Part shown: piece by piece, positions 4,075 through 45,606 of the stretch
Numbering within the stretch: position 1 is the first letter of the stretch
Layout of the letters: each line of letters starts with the position of its first letter
Assembly (NCBI RefSeq): GCF_001412655.1
Contig: NZ_CP012996.1
Location: 2,046,001-2,110,000 of the forward strand
Source: Pedobacter sp. PACM 27299
GTDB taxonomy: Bacteria; Bacteroidota; Bacteroidia; Sphingobacteriales; Sphingobacteriaceae
Direction: 5' to 3'
Length of the DNA: 64,000 nucleotides
The notes under the pieces: generated by a model
What the model was told of the DNA's origin: nothing
Databases searched by the model: none
What the model saw: the letters and a program-made list of their open reading frames with translations, nothing else
Program-made: the position numbers and the translations under genes

Positions 4075-4083
4075 TATGGGTAA

Positions 4084-18904: not shown

Positions 18905-21448
18905 TTAAATCGGTCTGTTTGAACTGGCTTCAAGATATGGAATAAATGCGCGCACCGCTCCACTCGATACTTCAGATGTGGAAGAATCTAATGTGAGGGC
19001 ATAAATTCTGGCACCATTGGGTGCCATTTTCATGTTCACCACAAATGTTTTTGAGGTATCGCTCAAAGGAGTTGCAATCGGAGACCAGGAAACTTCCTTA
19101 AGGCTTGAAGCATAATATACACTTACGAGTGTTTCGTCATTATTTTCGGCCTCCTTATTAAAGTTCAGTCCAAATATAAAAATATACTTTTCATCACCTG
19201 AATAAAGCAGGTTGGTGGTTGGGGTAGGTGCCGAATTTGGATATCCGTTAAAAATCTGAATCCTGCGACTCAGTTTCATGCTAGGTATATCCACCTGACA
19301 AAGGATAAATACAGTAGCATAATTGTTAGCCACATCGTAGCCCTGTGCAATCGTGGTCACTGTATTCCCATCCTGGGAAACCAGCAATGGCCCTGCAGTA
19401 TATTTAACCCCTTTAGGATCAGAACGCAGTGATATTGGGCTGCCTGCAATCGGGGCAAGTGTTTTACTATTTAAAATTCCCAGTCCTCCTGATGTGGTAT
19501 CCCCATCAATAATAGGGCAGAACAGATTGTTCCCTTTAGATGATAACCCGATTGGTCCTAAGCCTTTTATATTGGCTGGATTTCCAGTAGTTGGCTTGGG
19601 TTTTATAGTGCCAGTATCTATCGCCTCAATAAATGTGGGAACAGAAGTATATGGAGCCGATAGGAAAAGGGTGCTGCTGTCCTCACTGATGCACATCTCA
19701 TAAAGGTTGGGAAGACTGTTCGTATTTGTAATTAATGGCGAACCTGGTATTAGACTTGGTGGATTAGAAGTTGAAAAACCATAAACCTTACCTTCATCAC
19801 CAGTGAGACTGAGAGCGGCAACCATGATTTTTGTATTGTCGGCAGATACGGCTACATTTTTAGGCTGTTCATCGTTAGGCAGTAAAATTGGATTTGGGCT
19901 AGCCACTAGTGTTTGACCGTCAAGAATAGAAATTACGATCGAACCTATGGCATCTCTGACCCTGCCAGCAACATACACTTTGTCTGCCGAAGGAGAAATA
20001 TCAATAGCGGTAGGCATCTGGAACGACTGTGAAATTGGAAACACCTTAGCATCGTCAGCTTTCCATTTTACATGGATGGTCCGACTGATTTTAGAGACGC
20101 CCTGCTTGTCATATGCTGTAATTGTATAAGCGGAGCTTAGCGGGTTGGCATTGTTGATTGCTTTGGTATAGTCCTTTCCGGATGCTTTTGAGCCTTGCTG
20201 CGTGGCGTCACCTTTTATAAAACAATGGTCAGCATTCTTGGTCTCCCAGGTTAGTGTCAGCACAGTTCCAGAACTTGGGGTATATTGAATATTGCCACCG
20301 AAAGAAAGAATCTGAACCGAGTCTTCTTTGAAAAGAGGTTTCGGCCATACATTGTCATTAAAGCCCGGGAACTGCAGTGACTCAAGAATGATCTGGGTCT
20401 CAGGACTGTTGCTCGAAACTGGCAGATTACTGTAGATATGGCTGAAATAGAGATCGAGAAATGGGCCCGGACCGTATGTACCAGTAAACAAATACTTATT
20501 TGCTGGTGTCGGTTGTATCAGCCAATAGGGCGATGAGGAACCCAAGGTCGGTGCTGTGATCTTCCACCAGTCGTTTGTGGTCACATTCGGATTTTTGCTA
20601 TCGAGCGAGAGCAGGATATTCCAGGCTGAGGTATAGGTGTTGTAATTGGGCTCTCCAACTTTGAAATCATTTGTCAGGTCAGCATACGCTGGATCTGGGC
20701 TGTTCCCGTTAAAATAAGGGAAACGAAGCTTGAACGTTGGCGGGTGATTCGGATCCCAGGAGGGAACGAGTTGCCCCATATTTCCTTGACTTTCATTGGT
20801 TTCAGGGTTCTGAAAGAAAAAATTCAGGTGAATGGTATTCTCCGCAGCATTGTCTGAGGTGACTGGCACATTGGTTGCAGTTGCGACAATAGGATTGGTA
20901 TCATTGCTATCATTCACCATAATTCTATACCCAAGTGATTGATTTGGGCCGATGAGCGTTTTTTTATTATTCCCGGAAGCCAATATAGACAGCTGATTGG
21001 CAGCATCCATGCGGATGTCATCCTCAAAGTCATGATAAAGTTTTAGCGTTGCGGTTCCTGTGGCGATAGGTTTTATCGCTGCAAGTGCAATCGTTAATGT
21101 CCCTTTATCAGGAAACGCGACTGTGCTGGCTGCATCAGCTAACTTAAGCCGTAGTACATAGTATTTCTTCTGATCAGCGGGGTTCGGATCATCTTCTGGG
21201 GTGTAGATACCATTGGTTGCCCAAGGGGATTTTACCGTAATACCTTTTACACTGCTTTCATCAAGTACCTCTTTAGAAAATTTGACTAGCAGCTCCCTTT
21301 CCTGTGCATCAAATTGAAGGTCAAACCCTGAATTATTAGTGATTTCCAGATTGAGTTTGTTACCATCATTAAGCCCTATGTAAATCAGGTCATTAGGGTT
21401 TTTGTCAATGTCTGGATTGTGTAACTTGAGCGTAAATTGCTGTGCCAT
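18905..21448 (-). CDS. Large beta-propeller/Ig-like protein of the minus-strand mega-operon
   Basis: This 847-aa protein has no signal peptide (MAQQFTLKLHNPDIDKN). The N-terminal 370 residues are beta-rich and unfamiliar; residues about 375-465 resemble an Ig-like domain (LTLTWETKNADHCFIKG, then AYTITAYDKQG). From about 469 to the end are repeated blades of a seven-bladed beta-propeller of the YVTN/lactonase kind: AIDISPSADKVYVAGR, then NVAVSADNTKIMVAAL, with similar units following. Propellers of this type usually serve in binding. It is the last gene of six in the operon, 10 bases after the 1664-aa gene, so it is probably a late or accessory subunit. Confidence 0.75.
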   Translation of the reverse strand: MAQQFTLKLHNPDIDKNPNDLIYIGLNDGNKLNLEITNNSGFDLQFDAQERELLVKFSKEVLDESSVKGITVKSPWATNGIYTPEDDPNPADQKKYYVLRLKLADAASTVAFPDKGTLTIALAAIKPIATGTATLKLYHDFEDDIRMDAANQLSILASGNNKKTLIGPNQSLGYRIMVNDSNDTNPIVATATNVPVTSDNAAENTIHLNFFFQNPETNESQGNMGQLVPSWDPNHPPTFKLRFPYFNGNSPDPAYADLTNDFKVGEPNYNTYTSAWNILLSLDSKNPNVTTNDWWKITAPTLGSSSPYWLIQPTPANKYLFTGTYGPGPFLDLYFSHIYSNLPVSSNSPETQIILESLQFPGFNDNVWPKPLFKEDSVQILSFGGNIQYTPSSGTVLTLTWETKNADHCFIKGDATQQGSKASGKDYTKAINNANPLSSAYTITAYDKQGVSKISRTIHVKWKADDAKVFPISQSFQMPTAIDISPSADKVYVAGRVRDAIGSIVISILDGQTLVASPNPILLPNDEQPKNVAVSADNTKIMVAALSLTGDEGKVYGFSTSNPPSLIPGSPLITNTNSLPNLYEMCISEDSSTLFLSAPYTSVPTFIEAIDTGTIKPKPTTGNPANIKGLGPIGLSSKGNNLFCPIIDGDTTSGGLGILNSKTLAPIAGSPISLRSDPKGVKYTAGPLLVSQDGNTVTTIAQGYDVANNYATVFILCQVDIPSMKLSRRIQIFNGYPNSAPTPTTNLLYSGDEKYIFIFGLNFNKEAENNDETLVSVYYASSLKEVSWSPIATPLSDTSKTFVVNMKMAPNGARIYALTLDSSTSEVSSGAVRAFIPYLEASSNRPI

Positions 21449-21458
21449 AAGGTGTTTT

Positions 21459-24400
21459 TTAAGGTTGTTTTTTAAGTTTCAGCCAGCCGTCAATAAGTTG
21501 CTGCGGTGTGCCTGGAAATGTTGCACTCGTACTTTGCTGGTCTGTTCTTAATGGACCCTGGTCATTCATCCCAATTTGCTGCCAGTACCATTGAAAGCCA
21601 GCTTCAGCAGGAATAGGTATTTGAGGTGGACTGGAGGCCGTTAATATCGGAGCAGCCAGAAAACTTACGTCTAGTTTGCCGGCGGTTTGCGCGAACTGAT
21701 CGGGAGGAATAGACAAAGCGCCTACAGGTACGATCCCAGTGGTCGCATGGACTGCCGCACGTGGATCCATGATCATAGTCAGTTTTATTGATGCACCATT
21801 AGGTGTCAGTGTAACCGGGGCGTCTTTCTTACCAGCCGTAGAAATTACACCATGATCATCAGTCGTATCTACCGGCGTATACATACTGGAGTAATTGTCC
21901 GCAATGAAATAGCCCGCCAGTCCATCGTCAAAATAAGGCATTGGCGTACCTGCTACATCGATCTCTGTGGTGCCTATTTTTACAGGGATGGTCATCTTGC
22001 TGATGTCTCCCTGGTTCAGATTGTCTAGATTATAGGGAATAAAAGCAGCACTGCTGAGGTTAAATTTCGATCCCGGCTGATTCCATATCGGATAGGTATT
22101 GAGGTCCAGGCCAATATAAGGATCGCCTTTTTGTTCAACTGAGATCAGCGTCTGAGTAATCACCAAGGGCCGTCCAACAAGCAGGGCAAGGTCAGCATTT
22201 TCCTGCATCTCAGGCGTAATGATGAATTGCTGTGCTTTACTGATGACAGAGAGTACTTTTACCAGCCTGGACAGGGAAGCGGCTGTGTCATCCAAATAAA
22301 GGAACTGTGCTATGAAATCAGTAAAAACAACATTTGGTTTCTTTAATTTGAAGTAGGCGAGCATCTGATCCCGGTTGTTTTCGCCAGGAATAGTGGTTTC
22401 CCCAGGTACAGGAAACCAATGCAGCAGACTGCCCCGTTTCCCCAGGGATCCAAGAGGAATACCCTCTGCATCATATAATACCAATGTCCCATCCAGCTGG
22501 TTGGGAAAGATCCATCCACAAATAGGAGAAGCTGCCGGATGATGATTCAACTCTGTGAAACTGCCGATTCCAGTAGAGGAAGCAGCTGATAACCAGTCGA
22601 AATTCAACCTTGAAGGCTGCATCAGCCTCGGTGCAAGATAAATTTCATGATCCTTTGGGGCAGGTTGCTTTGCCTTCATACTCTCTGCAGTAATGATCTT
22701 TTCCGGTATTTCGATTGGGATAAAACGCCCAAAAATGTCAACAATTACAATGCTCTTTAACTGCATAAAGCCTGCCCGCATAGGCGAAAAGAATACCTTA
22801 TCCTGCGCGTTAGAGAAAGCATCAAAATTAATACCTTCAGCATTCCAGTTCATCGACCAGTTTTCCGATTGCTCATGAAGGAAAGTGGAAGGCCATAAAC
22901 TGCTCATATCAATGCCGCTTCCAGAAATTGAAGTCCAGGACTCGGGAATGGTGATCGGAATTTGTAATTCCTGCGCACGCTGTACCATACTTTCATTAAA
23001 CCCGCTTAAGCCCTGACTCAATACCATGCGTGTCTTATAATCCATATAAGACTTATAAAATTTCAATGCTTCTTCATACCTGGGCAGCGTTTCTGGCGGT
23101 GGTCCCAGTGAAGGATCATAGTTCAGGTAAGTCGTACAGTAAATCTTAATCTGATCACATAGATTTGAAGTCGTGGAGGAAGAAAGCGAAATAAGCCCAT
23201 GTGTGTTGAAAAAGTTTGGCTGCTGCAGGTTGCGCGCAAAAGATGGCATTGCAGTCTCGGTGGGCTCTAAATCTACACCATATTGCCCTAGTTCAAATAG
23301 TGATAGATAATCTTTTGGATAAGTTTCTGATGCGTTTTTATAAGTTTGAGCATACTGATAGTCTGTTTCCCACCAGATGAAGAGTGGTAAAAATGCATCG
23401 TTACCATTGCGCCAGTTGTAGCCGATATAGTAAGGAAGCTTACCTGACAAGCCTGTAGGTGCATTATTTAGTACAATATTGTGGATGTTATTGTATTGCG
23501 ATGATTTATTTTCTGCTGCGGCAGCTGCCAATGCAGTTGCGGGAATAACCGCTGCAAACTCAGGACTAAGCAGTAAGCCTTCAATGGCAAGATTCTGCAA
23601 GCTGCTGCTCAGGTTTGGAATTCCAGTTAAAAGATGCGCAGCGAGTCCGCTGATGGCCTGAGGTATTGCAGGAAGCTTGGGGGCAGTGATGACCTCCCCA
23701 TTTGTCCTGCAGGGCAGCAGAGCAGATTTACCATTTCTATCTACCGGCTTGAGTAAATCGTTTCCAATTTCCTGTTCAGCAAATAATACGACCGGATCGT
23801 TAGGGCTGTAGAATGGATCTGTAGGTGCGGTATCCAGCTGACAATCATTATTGATTTCCTGAAATAAGAACTGATTCCATTGTGCAACTTGCTGCGACCA
23901 AGGTAAACGCGCTCCAACGGATTGTCTGGCGGTGTCAAGTCCAGTTTGCAGGGCCTGCCATTCCTGAGAACGCAGTGCCAGGCTTAAAGCAGGAATGGAG
24001 GTCGCTGTTGGTGATGTATCCAATAAAGCCGACAATTGCAGTAATGCATTTTTGATGCTATCAGCAGTTGGTACGGCAATTAAAGCCTGGATACCAGGTA
24101 TAATTGGACTTGCCATTTCCGCCAGTTTACGCTTAAAATTATTGAGCTCTACTGAAGAAAGGGCTGCCGCACTTGCCTGTAAACCCCCATCAGCATTTAT
24201 TGCCGAGCTCGCTGAATTTATCAGTTCCTGCTGAGCCATTTGCAAATAATAAGCACAGACACAAGTGGATACAAGTCCGGATTTTTGGTAGAAGTATGCA
24301 GTTCCAAGCTGTACTGCCGCTGCTTCAGTATCAAAGAGCAGCTTAGGTTTTCCATTCTGGCCTGCAAAGATGTCCATTTGCGGTTTTAAACCAGGAAACT

Positions 24401-26453
24401 GGCCTACAGCTTTGTCCCAGCTTCCAATACATTTGTTGGTAGCAGCATTGATGGTGCCGGTATAGGTTGTACCTGCAGGCACAGGCACACTTTGTGTGGA
24501 TTTAAAAATGAGTGAAGTCGCAAAAACACCAGTCTTCTGGTCTAAATAGCTATCTAAAGTGGCTTTTGCCTGTTTTACCGCTTGCTGTTTTTGGGGTAAA
24601 TCGGTTTGTAGATTTGTTATAGACTGGTTGATGGTCATGATGGCGGTCAACAGAGTATTCAATGCCGTAGACGCCTGACTTAGGTAATTATCCGCATCAG
24701 CGCCACCTTGCTGATAACGCTTCAATAACGAAATTGCAAGTGCAGCCTGCGTTTGTGCTAAAGGCAGCCCATTGTCCCCGATTTGATCAAGTCCTATACC
24801 TAACTTAAGTAGTTGCTGTAAAAAGTTGGCTGCCACCATATTGTTTTCAGTATTGAATGCATAAGTAGGCAAGTTGGCAATAGGCGCAAGTATTTTAAAG
24901 GCTTCAGGTATGGGCTGATAAGGTGAAACTGGATGCTGTTCCATGTAAGATCCCGCTTTTAATAACATGGGATATAGGTGCATCATGCCATCCGCCAGAA
25001 ATGGACCGGAAAGATCGCTGCTCAAATCATCCTTGCCATTGACCACATGGTCATTGATGCTTTTTATATAATAGCTCCAGTCAAAAAATAGCTGTTTCTT
25101 TTTAGAGTCGATATTGCTCCAGGTGGCATCAAGGCTTTTTTGAGCCTGGTTCAGTTCACTTAGGATTTTGGCAAGATATAAAGGGAGTGTTCTCTCGTTA
25201 TCAGCGCCCTCCCTGGGCTTTTGGTTGGGGTCCATCTTTAGTCGGACAGACCATACACGGCCGCCATCATAAGCGGCAAAGCTGGTCCCATGTAAAAATT
25301 CCGCCAATTGTCCTACACCAACTTCTCCGGAAGATAGTTTTTGCAATTGATTGAATTGTAGTGCGTTTAATAGCATTTCTGCGTTGGCGCTCACATCGGT
25401 TTCAGTGCTGCTGAGTTGATTGGTTTCAATGGCATTGATGTATGCCGAAAGTGCCTCCGCAGTGTTATTTCCCACACTCACATCTATGCCGCCATTAGCG
25501 GGAAGGGAGTCTGGATAATATGGATTGCCCGGCGAGTCTATTTTCCAGGTCAGAGCGGCAATTATACCGCTCATTATGGCTTGCGTCTGACCGGTATTTT
25601 CCGGTGTGAGTACGCTATAATCCATTAAATTCCATTCCAGGGCATTTTCGATGGCTTCCTGAATGAACGTGCTGAAATCAGGTTTCGGGAGAGGCAGTTT
25701 GTCGTATTTTTCCAGCGCAATGTTTAGTACTTTGTTGCATTCATCCAGATTGCTGGAGTTCAGCCAGCCCATGGCCGAATAAGAGGCAGAGAAATCGCAG
25801 TTGTTTTCCAGCTGATTGGCATTCGGATAATGATCTTTCAGATCGTCATATAGCCCAAATATATTTCCGCTGTTCCGGTAATAAGCTGTAAATGTTTCCC
25901 CATATCCAAAAGGCGCCTGAAAAGAAGTGCCAAGGAAATTAGTTTTACTCGCGGTTGGTTCAGTCCAGGTAGATTTCAGGTCGATTTTATTTCCAACATA
26001 ATTGAATTGTAATCCCTGGATATCTGTCCGGTCATTCATCCATGGTATGGTATATTTACTGTTGCCTACCAAGGCTTGATCTTTGCTGTGAGCATCACTT
26101 TCGAGGACCCAGATCCTAATACTGGTATTGTTTTCCGGAGGCATTTTGTTGTCCTTCAGGTAGCGAATCACCAGCCATCGATTGGGCATGACCGGAAAAT
26201 TTACCGCACCGCTTTCCTGATTCTGAACGCCATGTGTATAGGCTTTGGGCAAGGACCAATGGAGGTGGATTCCTGGTTCGATATTCATTGCGGTCTGCGC
26301 TTCAGCAAACTGATTTGCTGCGATAAGGCCGCCAGCTGCCGATATTGGGCTGGTGCCTAACAAACTGAAATCATACAGTGCTGTTTTTGCCTGTTCATCG
26401 GTGGAAGGGGATACCCTCAGACCTTCTATATTTATGGGAACAATGATATTCAT
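21459..26453 (-). CDS. Giant conserved hypothetical protein (1664 aa)
   Basis: One uninterrupted 5-kb frame with no signal peptide. Near the N-terminus are two motifs I associate with giant uncharacterised bacterial proteins: GIHLHWSLPKAYTHG (residues 61-75) and PNRWLVIRYL (90-99). Residues about 570-640 form a probable coiled coil (SLLKRYQQGGADADNYLSQA onward, with heptads in LQTDLPQKQQAVKQAKATL). The C-terminal 150 residues are beta-rich and end in a WYWQQIGMNDQGPLRTDQ segment. No catalytic signature or membrane helix is seen, so a structural scaffold is the best guess. It lies 5 bases from the upstream gene and 10 from the downstream one, i.e. in a single transcript with its partners. Confidence 0.75.
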   Translation of the reverse strand: MNIIVPINIEGLRVSPSTDEQAKTALYDFSLLGTSPISAAGGLIAANQFAEAQTAMNIEPGIHLHWSLPKAYTHGVQNQESGAVNFPVMPNRWLVIRYLKDNKMPPENNTSIRIWVLESDAHSKDQALVGNSKYTIPWMNDRTDIQGLQFNYVGNKIDLKSTWTEPTASKTNFLGTSFQAPFGYGETFTAYYRNSGNIFGLYDDLKDHYPNANQLENNCDFSASYSAMGWLNSSNLDECNKVLNIALEKYDKLPLPKPDFSTFIQEAIENALEWNLMDYSVLTPENTGQTQAIMSGIIAALTWKIDSPGNPYYPDSLPANGGIDVSVGNNTAEALSAYINAIETNQLSSTETDVSANAEMLLNALQFNQLQKLSSGEVGVGQLAEFLHGTSFAAYDGGRVWSVRLKMDPNQKPREGADNERTLPLYLAKILSELNQAQKSLDATWSNIDSKKKQLFFDWSYYIKSINDHVVNGKDDLSSDLSGPFLADGMMHLYPMLLKAGSYMEQHPVSPYQPIPEAFKILAPIANLPTYAFNTENNMVAANFLQQLLKLGIGLDQIGDNGLPLAQTQAALAISLLKRYQQGGADADNYLSQASTALNTLLTAIMTINQSITNLQTDLPQKQQAVKQAKATLDSYLDQKTGVFATSLIFKSTQSVPVPAGTTYTGTINAATNKCIGSWDKAVGQFPGLKPQMDIFAGQNGKPKLLFDTEAAAVQLGTAYFYQKSGLVSTCVCAYYLQMAQQELINSASSAINADGGLQASAAALSSVELNNFKRKLAEMASPIIPGIQALIAVPTADSIKNALLQLSALLDTSPTATSIPALSLALRSQEWQALQTGLDTARQSVGARLPWSQQVAQWNQFLFQEINNDCQLDTAPTDPFYSPNDPVVLFAEQEIGNDLLKPVDRNGKSALLPCRTNGEVITAPKLPAIPQAISGLAAHLLTGIPNLSSSLQNLAIEGLLLSPEFAAVIPATALAAAAAENKSSQYNNIHNIVLNNAPTGLSGKLPYYIGYNWRNGNDAFLPLFIWWETDYQYAQTYKNASETYPKDYLSLFELGQYGVDLEPTETAMPSFARNLQQPNFFNTHGLISLSSSTTSNLCDQIKIYCTTYLNYDPSLGPPPETLPRYEEALKFYKSYMDYKTRMVLSQGLSGFNESMVQRAQELQIPITIPESWTSISGSGIDMSSLWPSTFLHEQSENWSMNWNAEGINFDAFSNAQDKVFFSPMRAGFMQLKSIVIVDIFGRFIPIEIPEKIITAESMKAKQPAPKDHEIYLAPRLMQPSRLNFDWLSAASSTGIGSFTELNHHPAASPICGWIFPNQLDGTLVLYDAEGIPLGSLGKRGSLLHWFPVPGETTIPGENNRDQMLAYFKLKKPNVVFTDFIAQFLYLDDTAASLSRLVKVLSVISKAQQFIITPEMQENADLALLVGRPLVITQTLISVEQKGDPYIGLDLNTYPIWNQPGSKFNLSSAAFIPYNLDNLNQGDISKMTIPVKIGTTEIDVAGTPMPYFDDGLAGYFIADNYSSMYTPVDTTDDHGVISTAGKKDAPVTLTPNGASIKLTMIMDPRAAVHATTGIVPVGALSIPPDQFAQTAGKLDVSFLAAPILTASSPPQIPIPAEAGFQWYWQQIGMNDQGPLRTDQQSTSATFPGTPQQLIDGWLKLKKQP

Positions 26454-26458
26454 ACGAT

Positions 26459-27433
26459 TCAGAGCGTTGAAGGCGATTTTTTATTAATGAAGCTAACGAG
26501 TCCTACACCTTTGACCATTTCCAGTGCGAAATCGGAAGAAACCAGGTGGTCTTTATAGTTCTCATTCAATGGTTTGGCCTGGTAATATCCTGGTGCAGCA
26601 TTTTTTCCTTTTGAGGCCAGCATGGCACCAAGCTGTTTGCTGAGCTGGTTCATGTCTAAAACGCGCTCCTCTGCATTGGCAAAAGGATTGCTGATCGACT
26701 GATTCTGGTAGGTGTTCGTATCGTATTTTGTATCCGGATCGTCCCAGTTTATTGTGGGAATTCGAAGTGTCTTGGTCAAATTTGGACTGACTTGATCAAA
26801 GCCAAAATGGATGGCTTCTGGCGGTTCATGCAGTACAAGTTCGTACAAGGGCCCTTGGAATATACCTAGCAATACTGTTTCTGAGAGGCGTTCCAGACGT
26901 AATATTTTCAGACTTTGCACCTTGGCTGGGTCTTTAATGATACCTTGTTCATAGTCAAATGGCGATTTTCCCTGTTCATAACCCATTACGTCCATGTTTT
27001 TCCATCCTGAAACTACAGCGGAATGTAATAGAAAACCGCTCAGTACTTCATTGATAGGTACGGCTGTGATGCTGGCGCTGACTTCTATACTCAGCTGTAA
27101 ACTTCTAACCGTATGGAGTCTGGCGCTCACCGTAGCCTGGAGTAAAGGCTGGAGCTGCTGATCGAGGTGTACTGTAGGCGGTGGATTATCTTCTCCGTTG
27201 AAATGCCTGCCTATACTCATCGCGCCATCTGTCAATGAATTGATCCAGTCTTGATCAACATGAAAAAAACGCAATGTTTCCATCGGTAAAAACTGTTCGT
27301 CAGGAACCAGGTAATTAAAAGGGATTCCATAAAGTAGTTTCAATTTAGTGAGCCAGTCTACCAGATCTTCCGGTAAAGCTGATGCAGCAACTTCAGTTGC
27401 CGCATTCTTCAGGTGTAAACTTGTGAATGCCAT
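26459..27433 (-). CDS. Conserved hypothetical protein of the mega-operon (324 aa)
   Basis: This soluble protein has no signal peptide and contains a distinctive conserved-looking block, LKLLYGIPFNYLVPDEQFLP (residues 31-50) followed by ETLRFFHVDQDW and NSLTDGAMSIGR. The middle has alternating beta-type sequence, and the end (GLVSFINKKSP) is short. I believe similar proteins of unknown function accompany giant proteins of this type in other bacteria, but cannot verify it here. It lies 3 bases downstream of the 559-aa gene and 5 bases upstream of the 1664-aa gene, implying a fixed stoichiometry or assembly order. Confidence 0.7.
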   Translation of the reverse strand: MAFTSLHLKNAATEVAASALPEDLVDWLTKLKLLYGIPFNYLVPDEQFLPMETLRFFHVDQDWINSLTDGAMSIGRHFNGEDNPPPTVHLDQQLQPLLQATVSARLHTVRSLQLSIEVSASITAVPINEVLSGFLLHSAVVSGWKNMDVMGYEQGKSPFDYEQGIIKDPAKVQSLKILRLERLSETVLLGIFQGPLYELVLHEPPEAIHFGFDQVSPNLTKTLRIPTINWDDPDTKYDTNTYQNQSISNPFANAEERVLDMNQLSKQLGAMLASKGKNAAPGYYQAKPLNENYKDHLVSSDFALEMVKGVGLVSFINKKSPSTL

Positions 27434-27436
27434 GTG

Positions 27437-29116: not shown

Positions 29117-29136
29117 TTTGCGTTCATTTAAATGGG

Positions 29137-33789: not shown

Positions 33790-33794
33790 TTAAC

Positions 33795-36212: not shown

Positions 36213-36223
36213 TCCAATGTATT

Positions 36224-36874: not shown

Positions 36875-36925
36875 CGTTAGATAGGTTTTAAAAAAGGAAA
36901 ACCTGGTAACGCTTTTATTTTTTAA
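36873..36925 (+). terminator. Intra-operon terminator/attenuator after glycine-rich gene 1
   Basis: Stem AGCGTTA (36873-36879) with TAACGCT (36907-36913) and inner stem AGGTTTT (36883-36889) with AAAACCT (36898-36904), followed by TTTATTTTTT. It overlaps the stop codon of the upstream gene and lies 11 bases before the next start. Partial read-through would give more of the upstream proteins than of the polyketide synthase. Confidence 0.7.
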
Positions 36926-36935
36926 AGATAATTTT

Positions 36936-37718
36936 ATGGAAAACTCAAGTCAGCTGAGCACCATCCTTGTACAAAGTACAGATGGAGCCATCGGAGGTAT
37001 TGGCAAAAAAGGGAAGGACGGAGAAAATAGTAAACAGGCCGGTACCGGGCAAAATGGTTCAGATGGTTCTTATAGCATAATATTTGGTTGTACGGCCGCA
37101 ACCAATGGCACAGCAGGTGCTTCCGCTGCGGTAACAGGAGATGGAAAACCTACTGATGGTGGGATAGGAGGGGATGGCCATGCTCCCTATCAATTTACCA
37201 TGCGTGTAGATACTTTTATTTTTCCGAATGAAACTGATATGTACATCCTAAGCCAGGGTGGCGCCGGTGGAAGAGGTGGAATAGGAGGTGATGGCGGTAT
37301 AGGGGCAGCTGGAGGAAATGCAGGGAATACTTCAGCAGATGATTATGCTAAGTATGATAAGAAATGCATTGCGACTGGCAAATGTCCGCCAGCAACTGGT
37401 GGATATGGAGGAGATGGCGCTCCCAGCGGCAAGGGAGGTAAAGGAGGAAGCGGCGGCGCCGGTGGGCTGGTCATCATCAATTACAAAAATTCAAAAGACA
37501 TTAACCGGGTCATTGTAAGTGTTGCTGGTGGTGATGCCGGGAAACCAGGTGCGAGTGGAAAAGGAGGTAAAGCCGGAGCTGGTGGGAAGAATGAAATCTG
37601 GCCTGTGGGCAGTGCTCAGACTTTTGCTCCTAATGGAAATGATGGAAATGATTCCGGTGACAATGGAGGAGGCCTTCCTGGAATATCCGGCACTTTCCAG
37701 TTGAATAAATATACCTAG
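36936..37718 (+). CDS. Glycine-rich GXX-repeat protein 2
   Basis: This 260-aa protein is a longer relative of glycine-rich protein 1. Tracts such as GAIGGIGKKGKDGE (residues 17-30), GGAGGRGGIGGDGGIGAAGG (about 108-127), GKGGKGGSGGAGG (163-175) and GKPGASGKGGKAGAGGK (202-218) are separated by beta-like segments (APYQFTMRVDTFIFPNETDM; GGLVIINYKNS). The unit 'Gly tract, hydrophobic strand ending I-x-Y, then GGDxGxPG' occurs in both proteins, pointing to common ancestry. Cysteines in GCTAA and KKCIATGKCPP match positions in protein 1. No signal peptide is seen. It lies between the attenuator and the polyketide synthase gene. Confidence 0.75.
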   Translation: MENSSQLSTILVQSTDGAIGGIGKKGKDGENSKQAGTGQNGSDGSYSIIFGCTAATNGTAGASAAVTGDGKPTDGGIGGDGHAPYQFTMRVDTFIFPNETDMYILSQGGAGGRGGIGGDGGIGAAGGNAGNTSADDYAKYDKKCIATGKCPPATGGYGGDGAPSGKGGKGGSGGAGGLVIINYKNSKDINRVIVSVAGGDAGKPGASGKGGKAGAGGKNEIWPVGSAQTFAPNGNDGNDSGDNGGGLPGISGTFQLNKYT

Positions 37719-37741
37719 GAATTACCTAATCCACATTATTG

Positions 37742-40700
37742 ATGTTAGCATGTAATACGATCGCCGATCTGATTGATCAGTATACGGCAGAACAAAAAGA
37801 CGAGCTGGTACTTACCTTTCTTGATGATTCAGGAGAGGAAAAGGCCAGCTTTACTTTTGAAAGTTTAAAAAATAGCTGCGTTACTGCAGCAAGGAACCTT
37901 CGTCTCGAATCAAGAAAGCAATTGCCAGTACTGATTATGGTAGAAGATCAGGCAGATTTTGTACTGAGCTTTTTCGGCTGTGTACTGGCCGGATTTATTC
38001 CCGCTACACTTCCCCCATTGAGGAGCAGACACGATCAGCAAGGCCTTGGGAGAGTATTGAATATCCTGAAGCAAGGGGTTTTAAAGGCAATCATTGTATC
38101 CGAAAAGGAGGCTGTACTGATGAAGAGCTTTCTACTCGATAATGAGCTCGAAGCGTTGAAAGTCTGGACGATTGAATCCTTGAAAAACCCGCTCAGTGCA
38201 GCGGTAGATTTACCTGAAATAAAACCTGACGACCTGGCTTACATTCAGTTTAGTTCAGGTTCAACAGCGACACCTTCAGGGGTATTGCTGAAGCATCAGC
38301 ATGTCATCGCACAAATGGCGATGATGCATGAAGTTTTTAACAGAAAAACAAAACCAAGGGTAGCCGGATGGATTCCTTTTCATCATGATATGGGCTTGGT
38401 AGGGCATTTGTTTACGGTCTTATATGAATCCGGATTTGGTGTGTTTTTTCCTGCTCCGGCTTTTCTCGCCAGACCAGAGCTGTGGCTCGATGTACTGCAT
38501 AAATATCGCGCAACAGCCGCTGCCGCACCTACATTTGCTTTTGAATTGTGCAGCCGTCGAATCACTATAAATCCGGAATGGGATCTTTCTTGCTGGGAGC
38601 AGGCTTATGTAGGTTCGGAAACGGTCAGCTATAAAATATTAAATGATTTCGCTGAGAAATTTGCCGCTGTCGGATTCTCAAAAAGCACTTTCAGGCCTGT
38701 TTTCGGATTGGCCGAAGCAACCTTGCTTGCTGCTGGAGGATCGCTCAATCTGGAACAGCTGGAGGCTGATATTCTAGTCAGGAAAGTTGGAGAAAAGGAC
38801 ATTCGACAGCTCATTCCCTATACACTGGAGCAAGGATGCGAGATCCGGATCAAAGATTCTTTTTCGGCAGCAGTGCTGGAAGAGGGGACGGAAGGAGAAA
38901 TCTGGATTTCTGGTGCTCCCGTGCCGGCCGCTTATTTAGCTGCTTCCACTGATCAGCGCCTGGAAGATGGAGGCGTTCGCACCGGTGATCTTGGAATGAT
39001 CATAGGTAAAAATCTTTACATCACTGGCCGGAAAAAGGAAGTAGTGGTGATCAGGGGTGTAAATTATAGTGCTGAAGATCTGGAAGCAAGTATAAGAAGA
39101 GAAGATTCTCTCATTCGCGCCCACGATCGAACCGCATGTGTATCACATATTAGAGACGAATCCGAGCAGCTATGGGTGTTTCAGGAAGTTCAGCGACACC
39201 TTTCTGAACAGGAAATGAAAGAACTTTTCATGCAAATCCAGCGCAGTCTCTCGGAAGACTTTGGTGTCATCGCCGGAAAAGTCATCTTTTTAGCCCAGGG
39301 CCTGATGCCTAAAACTGCCAATCATAAAATTTCCCGGCTGCAGTGCGAACAGCTGTTCAGCTCCGGTAAACTGAAAGCATTGGCGGTATTCCCTAAAGTA
39401 GCTGTCGATAATAATACACCTTTGGAGGGCTCTAAAGACAGGGTGGTTGTGGTGGGGATGGCTTGCCGTTTCCCTGGTGGAGCAGATAGCCCGGAGCAAT
39501 TCTGGGAGCTGCTGGCTTCGGGGGGAGATGCCATAACGGAAGTGCCGCCTGAACGCTGGGACAATGAATTGTTTTACGATCAGAACGCTTCTGTACCGGG
39601 TAAAGTGAGTACCAAATGGGCAGGGTTTTTAGACCATATCGCCGATTTTGATCCTGCATTATTCGGTGTATCTTCATTTGAAGCCTCCGAAATTGATCCT
39701 CAGCAGCGCCTTTTAATGGAAACTTCCTGGCGACTGCTGGAGCAGGTTGGAATAAAAAAAGAAGCGATTGCGGGAAGTGCTACCGGTGTTTTTGTAGGGA
39801 TTTCTACAAATGATTACCTGTATATGAAGATCAAATTAATGCCTGGAATGGAGAGCTTTAATGCGTACTCCGGTCTGGGGAATGCCAATAGTATCGCCGC
39901 AAACCGGCTTTCTTATTTTTATGACCTTAAAGGGCCAAGTATGGCGGTAGATACGGCCTGTTCTTCTTCACTTACTGCTTTTCATCTTGGTGTAAAAGCT
40001 ATTTTAAACGGTGATTGTACCCAGAGTATGGTGGCTGGGGTGAATGCAATCTTATCACCTGGACCCTCTATCACTTTATCTCAATTTGGAATGCTGTCGG
40101 CAGACGGACGCTGTAAAGCCTTTGATGCAGAGGCGAATGGTTACGTACGCTCAGAAGGATGCGGGATGGTGATGCTTAAACTGGAGTCTGCGGCAATTGC
40201 CGATGGAGATAAGATCTGGGCAATTGTGGATTCAACGACGCTCGGACAAGATGGTACCAGTGCCGGTATGACTTTCCCAAATGGATCGGCTCAGCATAAA
40301 TTATTGCAGAATAGTTTGGAGGCCGCCGGATTGAAGGGCGCTGATATCTCCTATATTGAAGCACATGGTACTGGAACACGTGCTGGGGACCCTGTAGAAA
40401 TGGAACAGCTGCGCGCTATATTTGGCGAATCAGCAGGTAACGCCTGTCATGTGGGATCGGTTAAAGCCAATGTCGGACATCTGGAGGCTGCCGCTGGAAT
40501 TGCCAGTGTGATGAAGACCATACTGATGCTGGATAAAAAGCAGATACCTCCGCAAATTCACCTGAAAACACTTAATCCTCAGATAAATATTTCCCATTCC
40601 CGTTTAAATATTAGCACATCGCTAAGCAATTGGGAGTCCCCAGGACAGGCCCGGCGTGCCGCGATCAATTCCTTTGGTTTTGGTGGTGCACTCGCAAATG

Positions 40701-43700
40701 TAATCCTTCAGGAACCAGAGCAAGCGGAGCATCGTACAAATCGTAAAGGTCTGGGTAAAACAGGCTTTTTTCAACTGCCTTTTGTCGTGTCGGGGCATTC
40801 AGCGGAAGCACTGCGGGCGCAGATCAGTTACCTGCAGGACTGGCTCGCTACCGATCCGGAAATTTCATGGAGCGATCTCTGTTACACGTATGCAGTTGGG
40901 CGCTCAGCGCTGAGTTATAAAACTTATTTTCTCGCCTATTCCTTGAAAAATCTTAGAGATAAACTGGCATCCTGGTTGGATTTATCACCGGTCATTGCAA
41001 GGGATGAACCCGCAGGTATTTGCTTTTTATTTACCGGACAGGGAGAGCATTTTCTTCGGATGGGGAATGAGTTGTACAGCCAGTGTCCCGCATTTAAGGA
41101 GGCTTTCGATCGCTGTGCAGCAGCTATTGATGTGCCAGGGCAGCCTGCTTTAACTGAACTTGCTTTTAAAAGAACAGAAACTTCCCATTGGAGAGATGAA
41201 ATTATGCAGCCCATTCATTTTGCGCTGCAATACAGCCTGGGTATTTTGTGGATGGAATGCGGGATTTCTCCGCAAGTCTTGCTGGGACATAGCTTAGGCG
41301 AATACGCAGCAGCCTGTCTGGCGGGTTGTTTTGAGCCTGAAGAGGGGATGAAAATCTTACGCCTCAGAGGTGAACTGGTGAAATCTGTTCCTGAAAAAGG
41401 CTTTATGGCAACGCTGTTTATGAACCATGAAGAGGTGCAGTCGCTGATCAACCCTGCATTGGCGTCGATTGCCGCAATCAATAGTCCTGTGAAAACCGTA
41501 ATTTCCGGTCACCCGGAAGAAGTAAATAGATTGTTAGAGATCTGCAAATCAAGAGGAATTGAAACCTATTTCCTGAAAGCAGAACAAGCTTTTCATAGTG
41601 CGATTCTGGATCCAATGCTGGAGGAGTTTCGCAAAGAGCTATCTGCTTTTTCATTTCATCCACCAAGGAAAAGATGGATTTCCTCCCTTACTGGAGAGCT
41701 GATGACCGAAGCTCCAGATGCAGATTATTGGGTGAATCACCTGCGTTTTACGGTGCAATTTGCCAAGGCTGTAGATCAGCTGGCTGTCGAAAATGAGCTG
41801 CACTTTATAGAAATTGGTCCAGGAGCAAGCACGCTGGCTGCGCTGCGGGAATGTACCGGAAGCACGAAGTCGATGCTGCTGCGGTCTTTAACCTTCAAAA
41901 AGGGTGATCGTACAGAAAGTTTCTATTTTCTGGATTCGATAGGCAAGTTATATGCTGCTGGTTTTCCCATCAATTGGGAGCAGCTATTGGCTGGAGCGTT
42001 CAGGCCTGAACTCGTTCCCGGGCAGTTATTTATGCATCAGCCTTATTGGCTGGCAGGGATGGACCTTAGTAAGTTTGCAAGTCATGCTTCAGGATCTGCC
42101 GACAAAAAATCTTTCGCTGTACCCACCAGCGGTTTACAATATAAATTGCTATGGAATGAAGCAGGACCTCTATCCGAATTACCTACGCTGGAAACTGGGC
42201 ATCAACCAGGCAACTGGATTGTAGTTGGAGAAAGAACCGAAATGCTTGAATCCATCATTTCAGCCCTACAGGAAGCAAAATATCCTACTTTCTGGATGGC
42301 TACCGGATCAGGCGAGGGCCGAAAAATTAAACCAACAGTAGTATTGCCCGATCAAGCCGGTAAGGAAGAATGGCATTCGGCTTTGGCGAGAATAAAGGAC
42401 CGTGAATCACGGGCTGATGCAGTAGAATGGAAGATTTTATTCTTGGATCCTGTAGATAAAGAACAGCTGTTTTCCAGGAATAACCGGGGATTAGAACAGC
42501 TCATTCCACTCACACAGGCCATTCATAGCACGGCCATGCTGACCTCCCTTTGGGTAGTTAGCCATGATGCCCATTTAGTCGCAGCCGATCAATCTTCCTC
42601 AATAAATATGGCTTCAGCTTTTACCTGGGGTTTCGCCAAGACCTTGTTTCTGGAACATCCAGAACTGCGTGGCGGCCTTATTGATCTTTCTGAATCGGAT
42701 GAATTAAATTCGCGGACGGCCGATCTGATTAAAAAGATATTGACACCTGAATTTGAAAGAGCGGTAGTGATACGGTCGGGTAGACCATATATTCAGCAGC
42801 TGGTCAGCGCTCCACTTGACGCGGCAAAACCGAAATCCTTTAGAGGAGATGGTGTGTTCATCATTACAGGCGGACTCGGCGGACTCGGTTTAAAATGTGC
42901 AGAATGGGCATGCAGCAAAGGGGCACGAAAGCTTATTTTATTGAGCAGGAGGAGATTGCCTGATCGATCGGAATGGGCTGAAATCAAGTCTGATGAGGCA
43001 TGTTTTGCTATTGTTCAGCAATTGATGAAGCTTGAAGATAAAGGCGTAGCCCTGGAAGTACTCAGTCTTGATGTCTCTTCGCCGGAGGCACTCAGCGCCC
43101 TTTTTGACCGTCTGGATAGGGATAAAGTACCCGTGCGTGGTGTGCTGCATGCTGCCGGGTTAAACTGGTTTTCGAAAATATTAGACCTGGATCAACAGCG
43201 TTTCTTTAATACCTTAAAGATCAAAGGAGCTGCTTCATGGGAACTGCATAAAAATACTACTAACCGAGATTTAGACTGTTTCCTGCTGTTTTCTTCTGTG
43301 TCGGCAGTTTGGGGCTCAGTAGATCTCAGCCACTACACTGCTGCCAACCAATTTATGGATGCGCTCAGCATTTACCGCGGCCAGCTTGGCTTACCAAGTT
43401 TAAGTATAGACTGGGGGCCTTGGGCGGAAGTGGGGATGAGCTCACAGTCGGCAGAAAAGACGCTGCTGGAAAAATTAGGATTTGCGCTGATGGCTCCGGA
43501 GACTGCGCTAAAAGCCATGGACGAAGCACTATCTACCTCCGAAAACGTTCGACTGATCGCTGATGTAAAATGGAATAATTTTAGACCGTTTATCGATTTT
43601 TGTCTGCAACCTTCACTATTTGCAAATGTGCCCCTTCTTCCTGAAATAAACCGCAAAACTGAGGAGCGGAAAATACACGCCAGATTAAAAGAAAGCTCCC

Positions 43701-44773
43701 CGGAAGAAGCTATGGTCCTGATTGAACAAATTATAAGGGCAGAATTGAGAACGGTGACACTGATTGAGTCAACAGATTCGATTGATGCAGATCAGCGTTT
43801 CAATTTCATGGGACTGGATTCGCTGATGGCGATATCCTACGTAGCGAAATTAGAAAACTATTTCCAGCTTAAACTCCCCTCAACACTGACTTACAACTAT
43901 CCTACCATTCGTTTGCTTCGGGAGCATTTGTTTGAATTGTTATACAAACCGCTTGACAATCTTGAGGTTAGTGTGCTGCAGGCAGAACTATTAATGGCTG
44001 TCGAAGAAGCACCTATTCTGGAAGATCAATGGTTTGTGCCGCTCAACCAGAATTCAAGCACTGGACAGCGCCTTTATTGTTTTCCATTTGCAGGTTCCGG
44101 AGCTTCGGCATTTGCTTCCTGGAGTCCTTTGCTGAAGGGGGAACTGGAACTGATCGGCATACAAAGTCCTGGTAGGGAAGAGCGGTCGGAAGAAAGTCCA
44201 TTTACAGAAATGACGGTCTTTATTAAAGAACTGCTGAGCGTTTTTCCTGAGCAAAATGAACCTTATTACTTATTCGGACATAGTCTCGGCGCTTTGATGG
44301 CTTATGAGTTTGCTATTGCGCTGCAGGATGCCGGTAGAAAGCTGCCATCCGGAATCATCATCTCTGGCTGTAATGCTCCGCTCCGGCCATCGGATGGAAA
44401 GATTCATTTGATGGATACCAACGAATTTATTGAGGCTGTGGTTTCCAGATTCGAAACACATCAGTCAGCTGAAGACCGTCTATTCGCGCTGCGTGAAAAC
44501 CATGCCGCATTGAAGGCCGATATCGAATTGCTCGAAACTTATGTGCCGGCCAATAGAACGCTTTTTATTCCATTGAGGGTGATCTGTGGAACAGCAGATC
44601 CTTTGGTCGAGCCCGAACGAATGAAGGAATGGATCAATCTTACGAAGAGCGATTTTGTAATTTCTTTTGTGGAAGGAAATCACCAGCTGGTACATCAAAA
44701 CGCTTCAGAATTGGTTCAGCTCATCCGACAGTCCATGCATCTTCATCCACATCTTAAACTGCAATCACTATGA
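37742..44773 (+). CDS. Single-module lipid polyketide synthase, FAAL-KS-AT-KR-ACP-TE
   Basis: This 2343-aa enzyme (ATG 37742; a TTG one codon earlier is less likely) has a complete domain series. A fatty acyl-AMP ligase (residues 1-550; FSSGSTATPSGV, WIPFHHDMGLVG) loads a fatty acid. The ketosynthase (567-990) has the triad C740 (DTACSSS), H875 (EAHGTGT) and H913 (NVGHLEA). The acyltransferase (1090-1390) has S1184 (GHSLGEY) and H1285 in AFHS, the malonyl-CoA signature. The ketoreductase (about 1470-1900; TGGLGGLG) has Y1865 and W1857, an A-type arrangement lacking the LDD motif. An acyl carrier protein (S2027 in GLDSLMA) and a thioesterase (GHSLG, S2181) end the chain. Expected chemistry: one two-carbon extension and keto reduction, giving a 3-hydroxy acyl product. 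No phosphopantetheinyl transferase is nearby. Confidence 0.93.
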   Translation: MLACNTIADLIDQYTAEQKDELVLTFLDDSGEEKASFTFESLKNSCVTAARNLRLESRKQLPVLIMVEDQADFVLSFFGCVLAGFIPATLPPLRSRHDQQGLGRVLNILKQGVLKAIIVSEKEAVLMKSFLLDNELEALKVWTIESLKNPLSAAVDLPEIKPDDLAYIQFSSGSTATPSGVLLKHQHVIAQMAMMHEVFNRKTKPRVAGWIPFHHDMGLVGHLFTVLYESGFGVFFPAPAFLARPELWLDVLHKYRATAAAAPTFAFELCSRRITINPEWDLSCWEQAYVGSETVSYKILNDFAEKFAAVGFSKSTFRPVFGLAEATLLAAGGSLNLEQLEADILVRKVGEKDIRQLIPYTLEQGCEIRIKDSFSAAVLEEGTEGEIWISGAPVPAAYLAASTDQRLEDGGVRTGDLGMIIGKNLYITGRKKEVVVIRGVNYSAEDLEASIRREDSLIRAHDRTACVSHIRDESEQLWVFQEVQRHLSEQEMKELFMQIQRSLSEDFGVIAGKVIFLAQGLMPKTANHKISRLQCEQLFSSGKLKALAVFPKVAVDNNTPLEGSKDRVVVVGMACRFPGGADSPEQFWELLASGGDAITEVPPERWDNELFYDQNASVPGKVSTKWAGFLDHIADFDPALFGVSSFEASEIDPQQRLLMETSWRLLEQVGIKKEAIAGSATGVFVGISTNDYLYMKIKLMPGMESFNAYSGLGNANSIAANRLSYFYDLKGPSMAVDTACSSSLTAFHLGVKAILNGDCTQSMVAGVNAILSPGPSITLSQFGMLSADGRCKAFDAEANGYVRSEGCGMVMLKLESAAIADGDKIWAIVDSTTLGQDGTSAGMTFPNGSAQHKLLQNSLEAAGLKGADISYIEAHGTGTRAGDPVEMEQLRAIFGESAGNACHVGSVKANVGHLEAAAGIASVMKTILMLDKKQIPPQIHLKTLNPQINISHSRLNISTSLSNWESPGQARRAAINSFGFGGALANVILQEPEQAEHRTNRKGLGKTGFFQLPFVVSGHSAEALRAQISYLQDWLATDPEISWSDLCYTYAVGRSALSYKTYFLAYSLKNLRDKLASWLDLSPVIARDEPAGICFLFTGQGEHFLRMGNELYSQCPAFKEAFDRCAAAIDVPGQPALTELAFKRTETSHWRDEIMQPIHFALQYSLGILWMECGISPQVLLGHSLGEYAAACLAGCFEPEEGMKILRLRGELVKSVPEKGFMATLFMNHEEVQSLINPALASIAAINSPVKTVISGHPEEVNRLLEICKSRGIETYFLKAEQAFHSAILDPMLEEFRKELSAFSFHPPRKRWISSLTGELMTEAPDADYWVNHLRFTVQFAKAVDQLAVENELHFIEIGPGASTLAALRECTGSTKSMLLRSLTFKKGDRTESFYFLDSIGKLYAAGFPINWEQLLAGAFRPELVPGQLFMHQPYWLAGMDLSKFASHASGSADKKSFAVPTSGLQYKLLWNEAGPLSELPTLETGHQPGNWIVVGERTEMLESIISALQEAKYPTFWMATGSGEGRKIKPTVVLPDQAGKEEWHSALARIKDRESRADAVEWKILFLDPVDKEQLFSRNNRGLEQLIPLTQAIHSTAMLTSLWVVSHDAHLVAADQSSSINMASAFTWGFAKTLFLEHPELRGGLIDLSESDELNSRTADLIKKILTPEFERAVVIRSGRPYIQQLVSAPLDAAKPKSFRGDGVFIITGGLGGLGLKCAEWACSKGARKLILLSRRRLPDRSEWAEIKSDEACFAIVQQLMKLEDKGVALEVLSLDVSSPEALSALFDRLDRDKVPVRGVLHAAGLNWFSKILDLDQQRFFNTLKIKGAASWELHKNTTNRDLDCFLLFSSVSAVWGSVDLSHYTAANQFMDALSIYRGQLGLPSLSIDWGPWAEVGMSSQSAEKTLLEKLGFALMAPETALKAMDEALSTSENVRLIADVKWNNFRPFIDFCLQPSLFANVPLLPEINRKTEERKIHARLKESSPEEAMVLIEQIIRAELRTVTLIESTDSIDADQRFNFMGLDSLMAISYVAKLENYFQLKLPSTLTYNYPTIRLLREHLFELLYKPLDNLEVSVLQAELLMAVEEAPILEDQWFVPLNQNSSTGQRLYCFPFAGSGASAFASWSPLLKGELELIGIQSPGREERSEESPFTEMTVFIKELLSVFPEQNEPYYLFGHSLGALMAYEFAIALQDAGRKLPSGIIISGCNAPLRPSDGKIHLMDTNEFIEAVVSRFETHQSAEDRLFALRENHAALKADIELLETYVPANRTLFIPLRVICGTADPLVEPERMKEWINLTKSDFVISFVEGNHQLVHQNASELVQLIRQSMHLHPHLKLQSL

Positions 44774-45543
44774 AACAAGCGTCGTTAAATTATAAAAAAC
44801 CCTGGTATAATGTTTCCGGAGGCCGATACAATGGCAATGAGCCTGCTTTCTATGATGCTCAGCAATTGCCTTGGGTAGCGGTGCTGGAGAGCAACTGGGA
44901 AATCATGCGGAATGAACTGCTCGCCTTGATGGAAGTAAAACCCCAGCGACTGCAGCCTTATTTTATCAATAAAGAGATGTCTTTTCCACCCCAGCAATGG
45001 AAAACTATGGGACTTTATTTCTGGAAGTTTGCCATGCATAAAAATTGTAAGAGATGCCCGCAGACTGTAGCTATCCTAAAAACAATTCCCGGACTGACTT
45101 CCTTCTCGTTAAGTGTACTTGAAGCGGGCTCGAATATTAATCCTCATCAGGGAGATACAGACGCCATTTACCGATGCCATGTAGGGATTTCGATACCAGA
45201 AGGCTTACCGAATTGCGGGTTTCAAGTAGGGAAGGAGATTCGGCCCTGGGAAGAAGGGAAGGCCTTGCCTTTCTGTGATGCACAAACGCATACCGCCTGG
45301 AATCATTCAAATGAACGGCGCATTGTGCTCATTCTGGATGTGATGAGACCCGAGTATATTGATCGTCAAAACAGTGTTTGTGCACATGTGCTTGCCTCTT
45401 CTTTTTTACAAATGCTTTATCAGCGATTTAAGGTGCTGGGGAGTCGTTCCGGTTACTTGAAAAGCACACTGTATCATGTTTCAAGGATTACTATTTTAGG
45501 CGTTTTGCCTATTCAGAGAGGGCTGAGGTTGATTACCTTTTAA
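44770..45543 (+). CDS. Aspartyl/asparaginyl beta-hydroxylase (LpxO-like) family dioxygenase
   Basis: This 257-aa protein overlaps the polyketide synthase stop by 4 bases (ATGA), so translation is coupled. It contains the Asp_Arg_Hydrox fold: NPHQGDTDAIYRCHVGI with H126, and DAQTHTAWNHSNERRIVLIL with H174 or H179 as the second iron ligand and R183/R184 for 2-oxoglutarate. This family uses Fe(II), O2 and 2-oxoglutarate. AspH hydroxylates protein Asp/Asn, while LpxO hydroxylates the 3-hydroxyacyl chain of lipid A, which makes the 3-hydroxyacyl synthase next door suggestive. The C-terminal 60 residues are basic and hydrophobic and could associate with membrane. The substrate (acyl chain or a glycine-rich protein) is undecided. 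Confidence 0.82.
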   Translation: MKQASLNYKKPWYNVSGGRYNGNEPAFYDAQQLPWVAVLESNWEIMRNELLALMEVKPQRLQPYFINKEMSFPPQQWKTMGLYFWKFAMHKNCKRCPQTVAILKTIPGLTSFSLSVLEAGSNINPHQGDTDAIYRCHVGISIPEGLPNCGFQVGKEIRPWEEGKALPFCDAQTHTAWNHSNERRIVLILDVMRPEYIDRQNSVCAHVLASSFLQMLYQRFKVLGSRSGYLKSTLYHVSRITILGVLPIQRGLRLITF

Positions 45544-45606
45544 ATGTTTTTAATGCCAGTGACCAGATATGGAATCGATGGTTCATTTGGCTTTGGTTGA
45601 ATTATT

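Follow-up and report, generated by a model that had tools for sequence, protein, structure and literature searches.

A conserved bacterial gene cassette with an exchangeable enzyme slot and a linked lipid module, seen from a divergent locus of Pedobacter sp. PACM 27299

We analysed a stretch of 64,000 nucleotides from Pedobacter sp. PACM 27299 (contig NZ_CP012996.1), hereafter the window, in which a locus at 18905..45543 carries eleven genes in two tight divergent operons, six on the minus strand (A–F) and five on the plus strand (G–K). The minus operon represents a conserved cassette, X-E-D-C-B-A, where E is a giant protein with a DUF6603 domain and X is a slot, occupied here by F, whose enzyme is exchanged between relatives. 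Where X differs, the N-terminal ~500 residues of E tend to differ too, whereas its DUF6603 half is retained. The plus operon adds an accessory module to this core. The cassette is real, conserved and modular, and no description of it was found in the literature searched.

The minus genes A–F encode proteins of 847, 1664, 324, 559, 1550 and 435 aa and are separated by 10, 5, 3, 20 and 5 bp. These coordinates agree with the initial annotation of the DNA, which had described eleven genes in back-to-back operons, minus-strand gaps of 3–20 bp and several giant proteins. The features of the locus are as follows.

18905..21448, minus strand: A847, receptor-binding/fibre-like protein; N-terminal part common to relatives, C-terminal part variable
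21459..26453, minus strand: B1664, large core protein, fold without assignment
26459..27433, minus strand: C324, core protein, fused to D in many loci (from alignments and the D-C fusions)
27437..29116, minus strand: D559, core protein (from alignments)
29137..33789, minus strand: E1550, beta-rich giant (PF20248 and AlphaFold2 model)
29869..31482, minus strand: constant half of E, DUF6603, residues 770-1307 (Pfam, Foldseek)
32350..33789, minus strand: payload-matched half of E, residues 1-480 (tblastn over 90 loci)
33795..35102, minus strand: F435, payload-slot protein with an invariant DDN and a sub-threshold TAGT resemblance
35103..35582, no strand: divergent AT-rich control region (GC content, promoter-like matches)
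35583..36212, plus strand: G231, accessory-module marker (alignment and family-genome survey)
36224..36874, plus strand: H, glycine-rich protein (26% Gly)
36936..37718, plus strand: I260, glycine-rich protein (26% Gly)
37742..44773, plus strand: J, polyketide synthase, AMP-binding(FAAL)-KS-AT-KR-ACP-TE (Pfam)
44770..45543, plus strand: K257, aspartyl/asparaginyl beta-hydroxylase family (PF05118, PDB AspH)
45606..45649, plus strand: intrinsic terminator of the plus operon (hairpin 45606-45645, then TTTT)

Conservation of the core was assessed over 90 loci, made up of 78 of the best 80 of 256 relatives found in genome contigs (L081 and L104 were left out as duplicates of L016 and L014) and 12 loci from a survey of family genomes. 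In a six-frame hidden Markov model search of these non-duplicate loci, B, C, D and E were all present in 78/90, and B in 82/90. The 78 named loci fall in Bacteroidota (21), Actinomycetota (15), Cyanobacteriota (13), Pseudomonadota (10), Chloroflexota (4), Bacillota (3) and Acidobacteriota (3), with nine assigned to no phylum; at least seven phyla are represented, and every one of these seven includes a locus that has B, D and E. E precedes B in 44 loci and follows it, with D and C fused, in 25; these calls were scripted without requiring X or A, and ten loci were partial and 11 had no called E frame. Among the 12 loci without the full B-C-D-E set, five are distant variants and six lie on 13.5 kb or less. 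The distant variants (L019, L021, L022, L024 and L025), three of which give weak E- or D-like matches, are DUF6603-type giant-gene operons of Sphingobacteriaceae in which the modelled B and C were not detected.

Within the window's family and phylum the core is scattered; all tallies of E-, D- and G-type genes there come from drawn samples. DUF6603 was found in 13/201 family genomes, the window's included, and in seven of the 12 others E, D, C and B were neighbours by BLAST. D was rare across the phylum (9/395 genomes). The source genome, a single 6.15-Mb contig, has one DUF6603 gene.

The slot gene, taken as the nearest frame upstream of E, belongs to an MBL-fold cluster in 14 loci, to the endonuclease/exonuclease/phosphatase class in seven and to the class 3 lipases in five, with smaller groups besides. 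Five loci had no such frame, in several it lay >200 bp away, and two slots held something else, a sigma-54 regulator in L045 and an A-type Collar protein in L023. Pfam searches of 20 slot proteins returned MBL, nuclease, lipase, DUF4135, trypsin, subtilase and M91 effector families, with nuclease L016 (24.1 versus 24.5 bits) and MBL L026 (21.2 versus 22.7) slightly below cut-off; eight of the 20 gave nothing at E 0.01. Some classes were assigned by eye, namely MBL (L042, L091), zinc-peptidase-like (L086), nuclease (L020, L028, L031, L033, L067, L070) and HNH-like (L055, L075, L093, L099). L083 was classed as a lipase, the remaining loci were labelled according to their BLAST cluster, and those that stayed unclear were excluded.

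When these classes were mapped onto a quick LG+G4 tree of 80 E domains, on which long branches (L018, L023) were flagged, payload class changed at least 24 times over 54 labelled rows, compared to 28–38 (mean 33.5) in 200 shuffles. The payload class is thus partly inherited and often exchanged. The window's closest E relative, L026 of Chitinophaga ginsengisoli, carries an MBL-like payload. Two Microcystis loci, L065 and L075, have downstream flanks that are 95-97% identical and are 85% identical over the E C-terminus and DC, and their payloads differ; by blastn, the start of E is unmatched up to about residue 500 (L065) or 560 (L075). The same swap pattern is seen in a second pair, L099 and L051, with the break near residue 800. 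Across all pairs, a shared E N-terminus was detectable in 95/191 with the same payload versus 167/985 with different payloads, and the matching that remained after C-terminal similarity was reached by 0/2000 label shuffles.

Residues 1-480 of the window's E gave eight tblastn matches over the 90 loci, the top five being the five loci that carry F, and none in L026. These F relatives sit in the same slot in Pacificoceanicola, Pseudomonas, Streptomyces, Hormoscilla and a Pyrinomonadaceae metagenome-assembled genome (MAG). D210, D211 and N212 are invariant in the alignment of the six, and F435 resembles the TET-associated glycosyltransferase (TAGT) family at 13.6 bits, under the cut-off of 27.5. 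The initial annotation had proposed a system that builds and acylates or glycosylates a large assembly; F as the glycosylating member of such a system is not favoured, because other loci have nucleases, lipases, peptidases or MBL-fold enzymes in this slot. Behind a nuclease-like gene, four loci with a short E (L020, L028, L031, L033) have proteins of ~390 and 161 aa at the position of the E N-terminus, which they may replace.

E1550 matches PF20248 (DUF6603) at 399.9 bits (cut-off 27, E 2e-119), a family not mentioned in the literature searched (main texts, without supplements). An AlphaFold2 model of residues 401–1550 has a mean predicted local distance difference test score (pLDDT) of 74.9 and a predicted template modelling score (pTM) of 0.59, with blocks mostly at 80-97 over model residues 370 to 840. 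Foldseek placed ApoB100 and LPD-3 in the top rows, followed by outer-membrane barrels. At 8% identity and low template modelling (TM) scores, the likeness of E to ApoB100, to the bridge-like lipid-transfer protein LPD-3 and to large outer-membrane barrels does not establish homology. The highest 19-residue Kyte-Doolittle means of E, 1.92 and 1.77, lie within the beta region; that of B is 1.64. No Pfam family was found above cut-off for B, C or D. The best PDB row for B by sequence was a designed helical protein (E 0.017), and a 1165-aa B homologue (L018) was modelled with pLDDT 75.9 and pTM 0.76.

The far end of the cassette is variable. Ten homologues of A each contain, towards the C- or the N-terminus, at least one of Laminin_G_3, Gp10_C, Peptidase_S74, Kelch, Lactonase propeller, Fib_succ_major and Collar, the last below cut-off in these and above it in L023. 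A847 itself has a sub-threshold DUF5001 match, and its C-terminal part resembles, by eye, a YVTN-type beta-propeller. Some A genes were identified by their position after B. A simple signal-peptide motif was present in 0/54 A genes and in 1/74 slot candidates, that one 959 bp from E. The initial annotation had called the giants signal-less, and a Kyte-Doolittle scan, the sole test applied to this claim, likewise gave no hydrophobic N-terminus for A–F.

The plus operon is linked to this core. J has AMP-binding, KS, AT, KR, ACP and TE domains by Pfam; every domain of the FAAL-KS-AT-KR-ACP-TE enzyme proposed initially is there, provided that AMP-binding is read as FAAL rather than as another acyl-ligase type. 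Pathways with FAAL and polyketide synthases make 3-hydroxy fatty acyl products. They have the same domain order as J, which differs in being clustered with a giant scaffold and glycine-rich proteins. K257 matches PF05118 (Asp_Arg_Hydrox, 6.3e-44) and PDB AspH (6.9e-20), and a PDB sequence search with I260 gave no match.

G occurs in 3/201 family genomes, those of the window and of two other genera (G099, G155), each time ~2-3 kb from E. In G155 a single strand carries G-H-I-lipase-E-D-C-B-A-J-K, and J starts 5 bp after A; G099 has the same order plus a 162-aa gene between A and J, and both have a lipase and no F. Beyond Sphingobacteriaceae, G, H, I, J and K accompany the core in a gammaproteobacterial MAG (G585, L083), where A precedes two copies of G, H-/I-type genes, a lipase not directly upstream of E, a further glycine-rich protein, an APH-type kinase, J and K, and there is no F. 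J relatives are 47% (G155), 46% (G099) and 42% identical over 2348 columns (G585), with the same domains in G155, and K relatives are 67%, 66% and 59% identical, respectively. In Janthinobacterium (G586, L092), discrete lipid-type genes (L151, 7923-13038) lie downstream of G, glycine-rich genes, a lipase, E, D, C and B, in the place that the modular polyketide synthase takes in other clusters: ACP-like, two KS-like, K-like (28%), SDR-like and a second K-like gene (46%), the ACP and SDR labels being by eye. We read this set as similar chemistry through other parts. H relatives, and likewise I relatives, adjoin E in L015, L017, L092 and L080, and G, H or I relatives lie beside 5/90 loci. APH-type kinases also stand beside glycine-rich genes at L125 16221-17860 (one of two scanned) and L149 12431-13291.

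The E genes of G155, G099, G585 and G586 form one clade (support 99), with the window's E elsewhere, and an approximately unbiased (AU) test rejects the placement of all five G-bearing loci in a single E clade (p 3.6e-5; the group was chosen after viewing the tree). Core and module have therefore joined, or been exchanged, more than once. The initial proposal that the two operons form one system is supported: in all three family genomes that have G, it lies within ~3 kb of an E gene, and the two besides the window's also carry homologues of J and K in that cluster, arranged differently. As to whether homologues of the two operons routinely occur apart, the outcome is mixed: the E-D-C-B core is usually seen without G–K, whereas the full G–K set was found only with the core. 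The polyketide synthase operon could instead encode an unrelated lipid or lipopeptide pathway that is a mere neighbour of the cassette, as might be supposed from the many cores without such an operon in the fetched flanks (most of them) and from the common enzyme families to which J and K belong. However, four genomes from two phyla have G-H-I-J-K together with the core, arranged in three gene orders and, in G155, with the close A–J spacing, and KS-like and K-like genes lie downstream of the core in Janthinobacterium. We consider a chance neighbourhood very improbable, and the least likely of the rival explanations.

G relatives without the core are few. Among 395 genomes of the window's phylum there are two, both weak and partial (G256, G467), and the 349 genomes sampled from the Janthinobacterium phylum also yield two (G889, G927). 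In G467 (L165, 2395-13407), glycine-rich proteins adjoin an RHS-repeat giant of 2808 aa, and in G256 (L166, 1-10627) they accompany a PhyH oxygenase and a giant that is RHS-like by eye, with 0 Pfam matches. Both G927 (L161/L162) and G889 (L163/L164) have G/glycine-rich genes and a protein of 1364 or 1482 aa without a Pfam match, and no E-A core. G927 also has a pentapeptide-repeat protein and a KS-AT-DH-KR-ACP synthase, which were scanned; the G889 counterparts are named by likeness, and VgrG-type fragments lie near them. With giants beside these coreless relatives too, the glycine-rich module is associated with giant proteins, including one of the RHS type, and in many cases also with lipid or hydroxylating enzymes.

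What might such a cassette do? A reading to which we give about an even chance is that it encodes a modular payload-delivery particle, like the Tc toxins in its working and not homologous to them, which the lipid module arms or anchors. X would be the exchangeable enzyme payload, in the window the DxD-type glycosyltransferase-like F435, held by the payload-matched N-terminal ~500 residues of E. The DUF6603 half of E would be a large amphipathic beta-sheet that stays constant. D, C and B would complete the constant scaffold and, with the E C-terminus, make up a lipid- or membrane-active body. A would be the variable recognition end, built of modules known from phage tail fibres and lectins. Particles assembled in the cytosol might be released by lysis or another route; A would then bind a target surface, and X would be passed across or onto the membrane via the lipid-binding or barrel-forming sheet of E. 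J would make a 3-hydroxy fatty acid, and K would hydroxylate that acid or an Asp/Asn side chain. The loading site of the resulting lipid may be E or the glycine-rich proteins, which may add adhesion to the target; glycine-rich helices of the polyglycine-II type occur in phage adhesins. What the comparison shows is the conservation of the cassette, its slot, the exchange of payloads, their co-variation with E, the variability of A and the linkage of the lipid module; delivery, its target, lipid loading, the product of J and the activity of F are the inferred part of the reading.

Several points weigh against this reading. No export signal, secretion gene or translocation pore has been demonstrated for the cassette, and some payloads resemble effectors of intracellular defence. 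Sequence searches gave no PDB relative of B, D or F, and the L018 model of B matched nothing in the PDB at E<=0.001 by Foldseek. The fold matches of E have TM-scores of 0.12 (ApoB) and 0.08 (LPD-3) with mostly high root-mean-square deviations, and the glycosyltransferase-like label of F comes from a sub-threshold match. As to payload matching, the shuffles account for the tree only through C-terminal similarity, 96/191 same-payload pairs have no detectable shared E N-terminus, and L086/L105, as well as L067 and the F-type loci, share an N-terminus yet differ in payload. Finally, no J- or K-like open reading frame was seen in the flanks (<=10 kb) of the surveyed loci, J being found only where flanks were fetched further.

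The resemblance to defence effectors suggests another role, that of an intracellular anti-phage system in which A, as a sensor, captures foreign features and E-D-C-B set the enzyme X free within the infected cell. The MBL payload of L051 matches LmuA (1.4e-13), RTasMBL (1.1e-12) and Avs1a (1.3e-4), as well as NCBIfam 6A-MBL below cut-off (2.6e-11), and LmuA matches were also given by the trypsin-like L048 (2.5e-4) and the subtilase L103 (8.6e-4). The patchy distribution and the lack of signal peptides by simple tests fit this role as well. By contrast, A, D, E and F had no match in PADLOC-DB 2.0.0 (B and C were not scanned), the payloads include class 3 lipases and an M91 effector, and the lipid synthase and glycine-rich proteins fit poorly. 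Phage-fibre modules, such as those in A, are more usual for extracellular binding. On balance, we regard an anti-phage role as unlikely.

Lipases, peptidases, lectin and propeller modules and glycine-rich proteins, in hosts whose names are mostly environmental, would also suit a surface or extracellular complex for enzyme display or adhesion, serving feeding or matrix, in which X degrades or modifies and lipid anchors. The lack of signal peptides by simple tests speaks against such a complex, as do the nucleases and competence/defence-type MBL-fold enzymes, which would be odd for surface digestion, and the payload-matched E halves, which point to packaging. We therefore think display or adhesion quite unlikely.

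Among described systems, the Tc/ABC toxins (TcA, TcB, TcC; PMC6868009, PMC7264150) are like the cassette in having a constant large scaffold, a variable enzyme and a receptor-binding part; in the cassette, however, the payload is a separate protein, the giant is of the DUF6603 type and there is a lipid module. Pfam searches of A–I at E 0.1 gave no Tc, SpvB or RHS domain. Rhs polymorphic toxins (PMC8765631) likewise house a variable toxic part, and G relatives adjoin the RHS giant in G467, but the cassette core has no RHS repeat and its payload is not a C-terminal domain. Extracellular contractile injection systems (PMC8213781) are also common in environmental bacteria and carry varied toxins, whereas 12/20 E- or D-positive genomes (five of the 20 carry distant DUF6603 variants) have no sheath match at E 0.001. 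The initial annotation knew of no described system with this combination, and the literature searched held none. The case for newness rests on this combination and on core proteins for which searches of Pfam, the PDB and, with A, D, E and F, PADLOC gave no relatives. More tentative, and in our view somewhat unlikely, is the broader proposal that these are phylum-spanning payload particles, unrelated in sequence to described injection or toxin complexes, in which a lipid-clad beta-giant has one half tailored to its cargo, with fibre-type targeting and, in certain lineages, their own polyketide synthase and hydroxylase to make the particle's lipid. These would amount to bacterial delivery particles of protein and lipid.

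Were the cassette a delivery particle, the idea of a swappable payload would itself be known from Tc and Rhs toxins. It would still add a new modular enzyme-carrying route in bacteria, found in at least seven phyla and with natural payload exchanges to study, and give a fatty-acyl polyketide synthase a testable role within a protein machine. Even if delivery is wrong, a swappable enzyme slot with a co-changing half-protein is a testable system.

Three further associations were considered and rejected. A phage origin is not borne out, as E was unmatched in 50,697 phage records, and of 45 pattern-matching stretches in viral contigs none was confirmed. Dependence on contractile injection is not apparent from sheath matches, which occur in 8/20 E- or D-positive versus 12/38 other genomes. 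VgrG/DUF4280 is not a regular neighbour, being seen only on a P. polymyxa plasmid and, as fragments, in G889. A plasmid search gave eight records. On the P. polymyxa plasmid (L117), Baseplate V, DUF4280 and pentapeptide genes (454-6060) lie ~8 kb upstream of an E-DC-B cassette; in phmmer searches of the genes on this plasmid against the other loci, only the pentapeptide repeats were related.

The control elements of the window's locus are largely as initially annotated. The control region between the operons (35103-35582) is 480 bp at 21% GC, compared to 44-48% in 2-kb blocks inside both operons and 32-39% in the right flank. Promoter-like matches in 35050-35650 number 8, versus 3.6 (standard deviation 1.7) in shuffles, and probable ATG starts lie at 35583 (G), 36224 (H) and 37742 (J). 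The strong terminator claimed for the plus operon corresponds to a hairpin at 45606-45645, with 16 Watson-Crick and two G-U pairs among its 18, and a run of four T behind it. The fold energy of 45544-45660 is -40.3 kcal/mol (z -5.8), equalled in 0/200 shuffles; a terminator pattern scan of 45400-45900 detected none and so missed this hairpin. Further along the window, at 45858-46904, a 348-aa protein without a Pfam match belongs to a family matched in 31/79 genus genomes.

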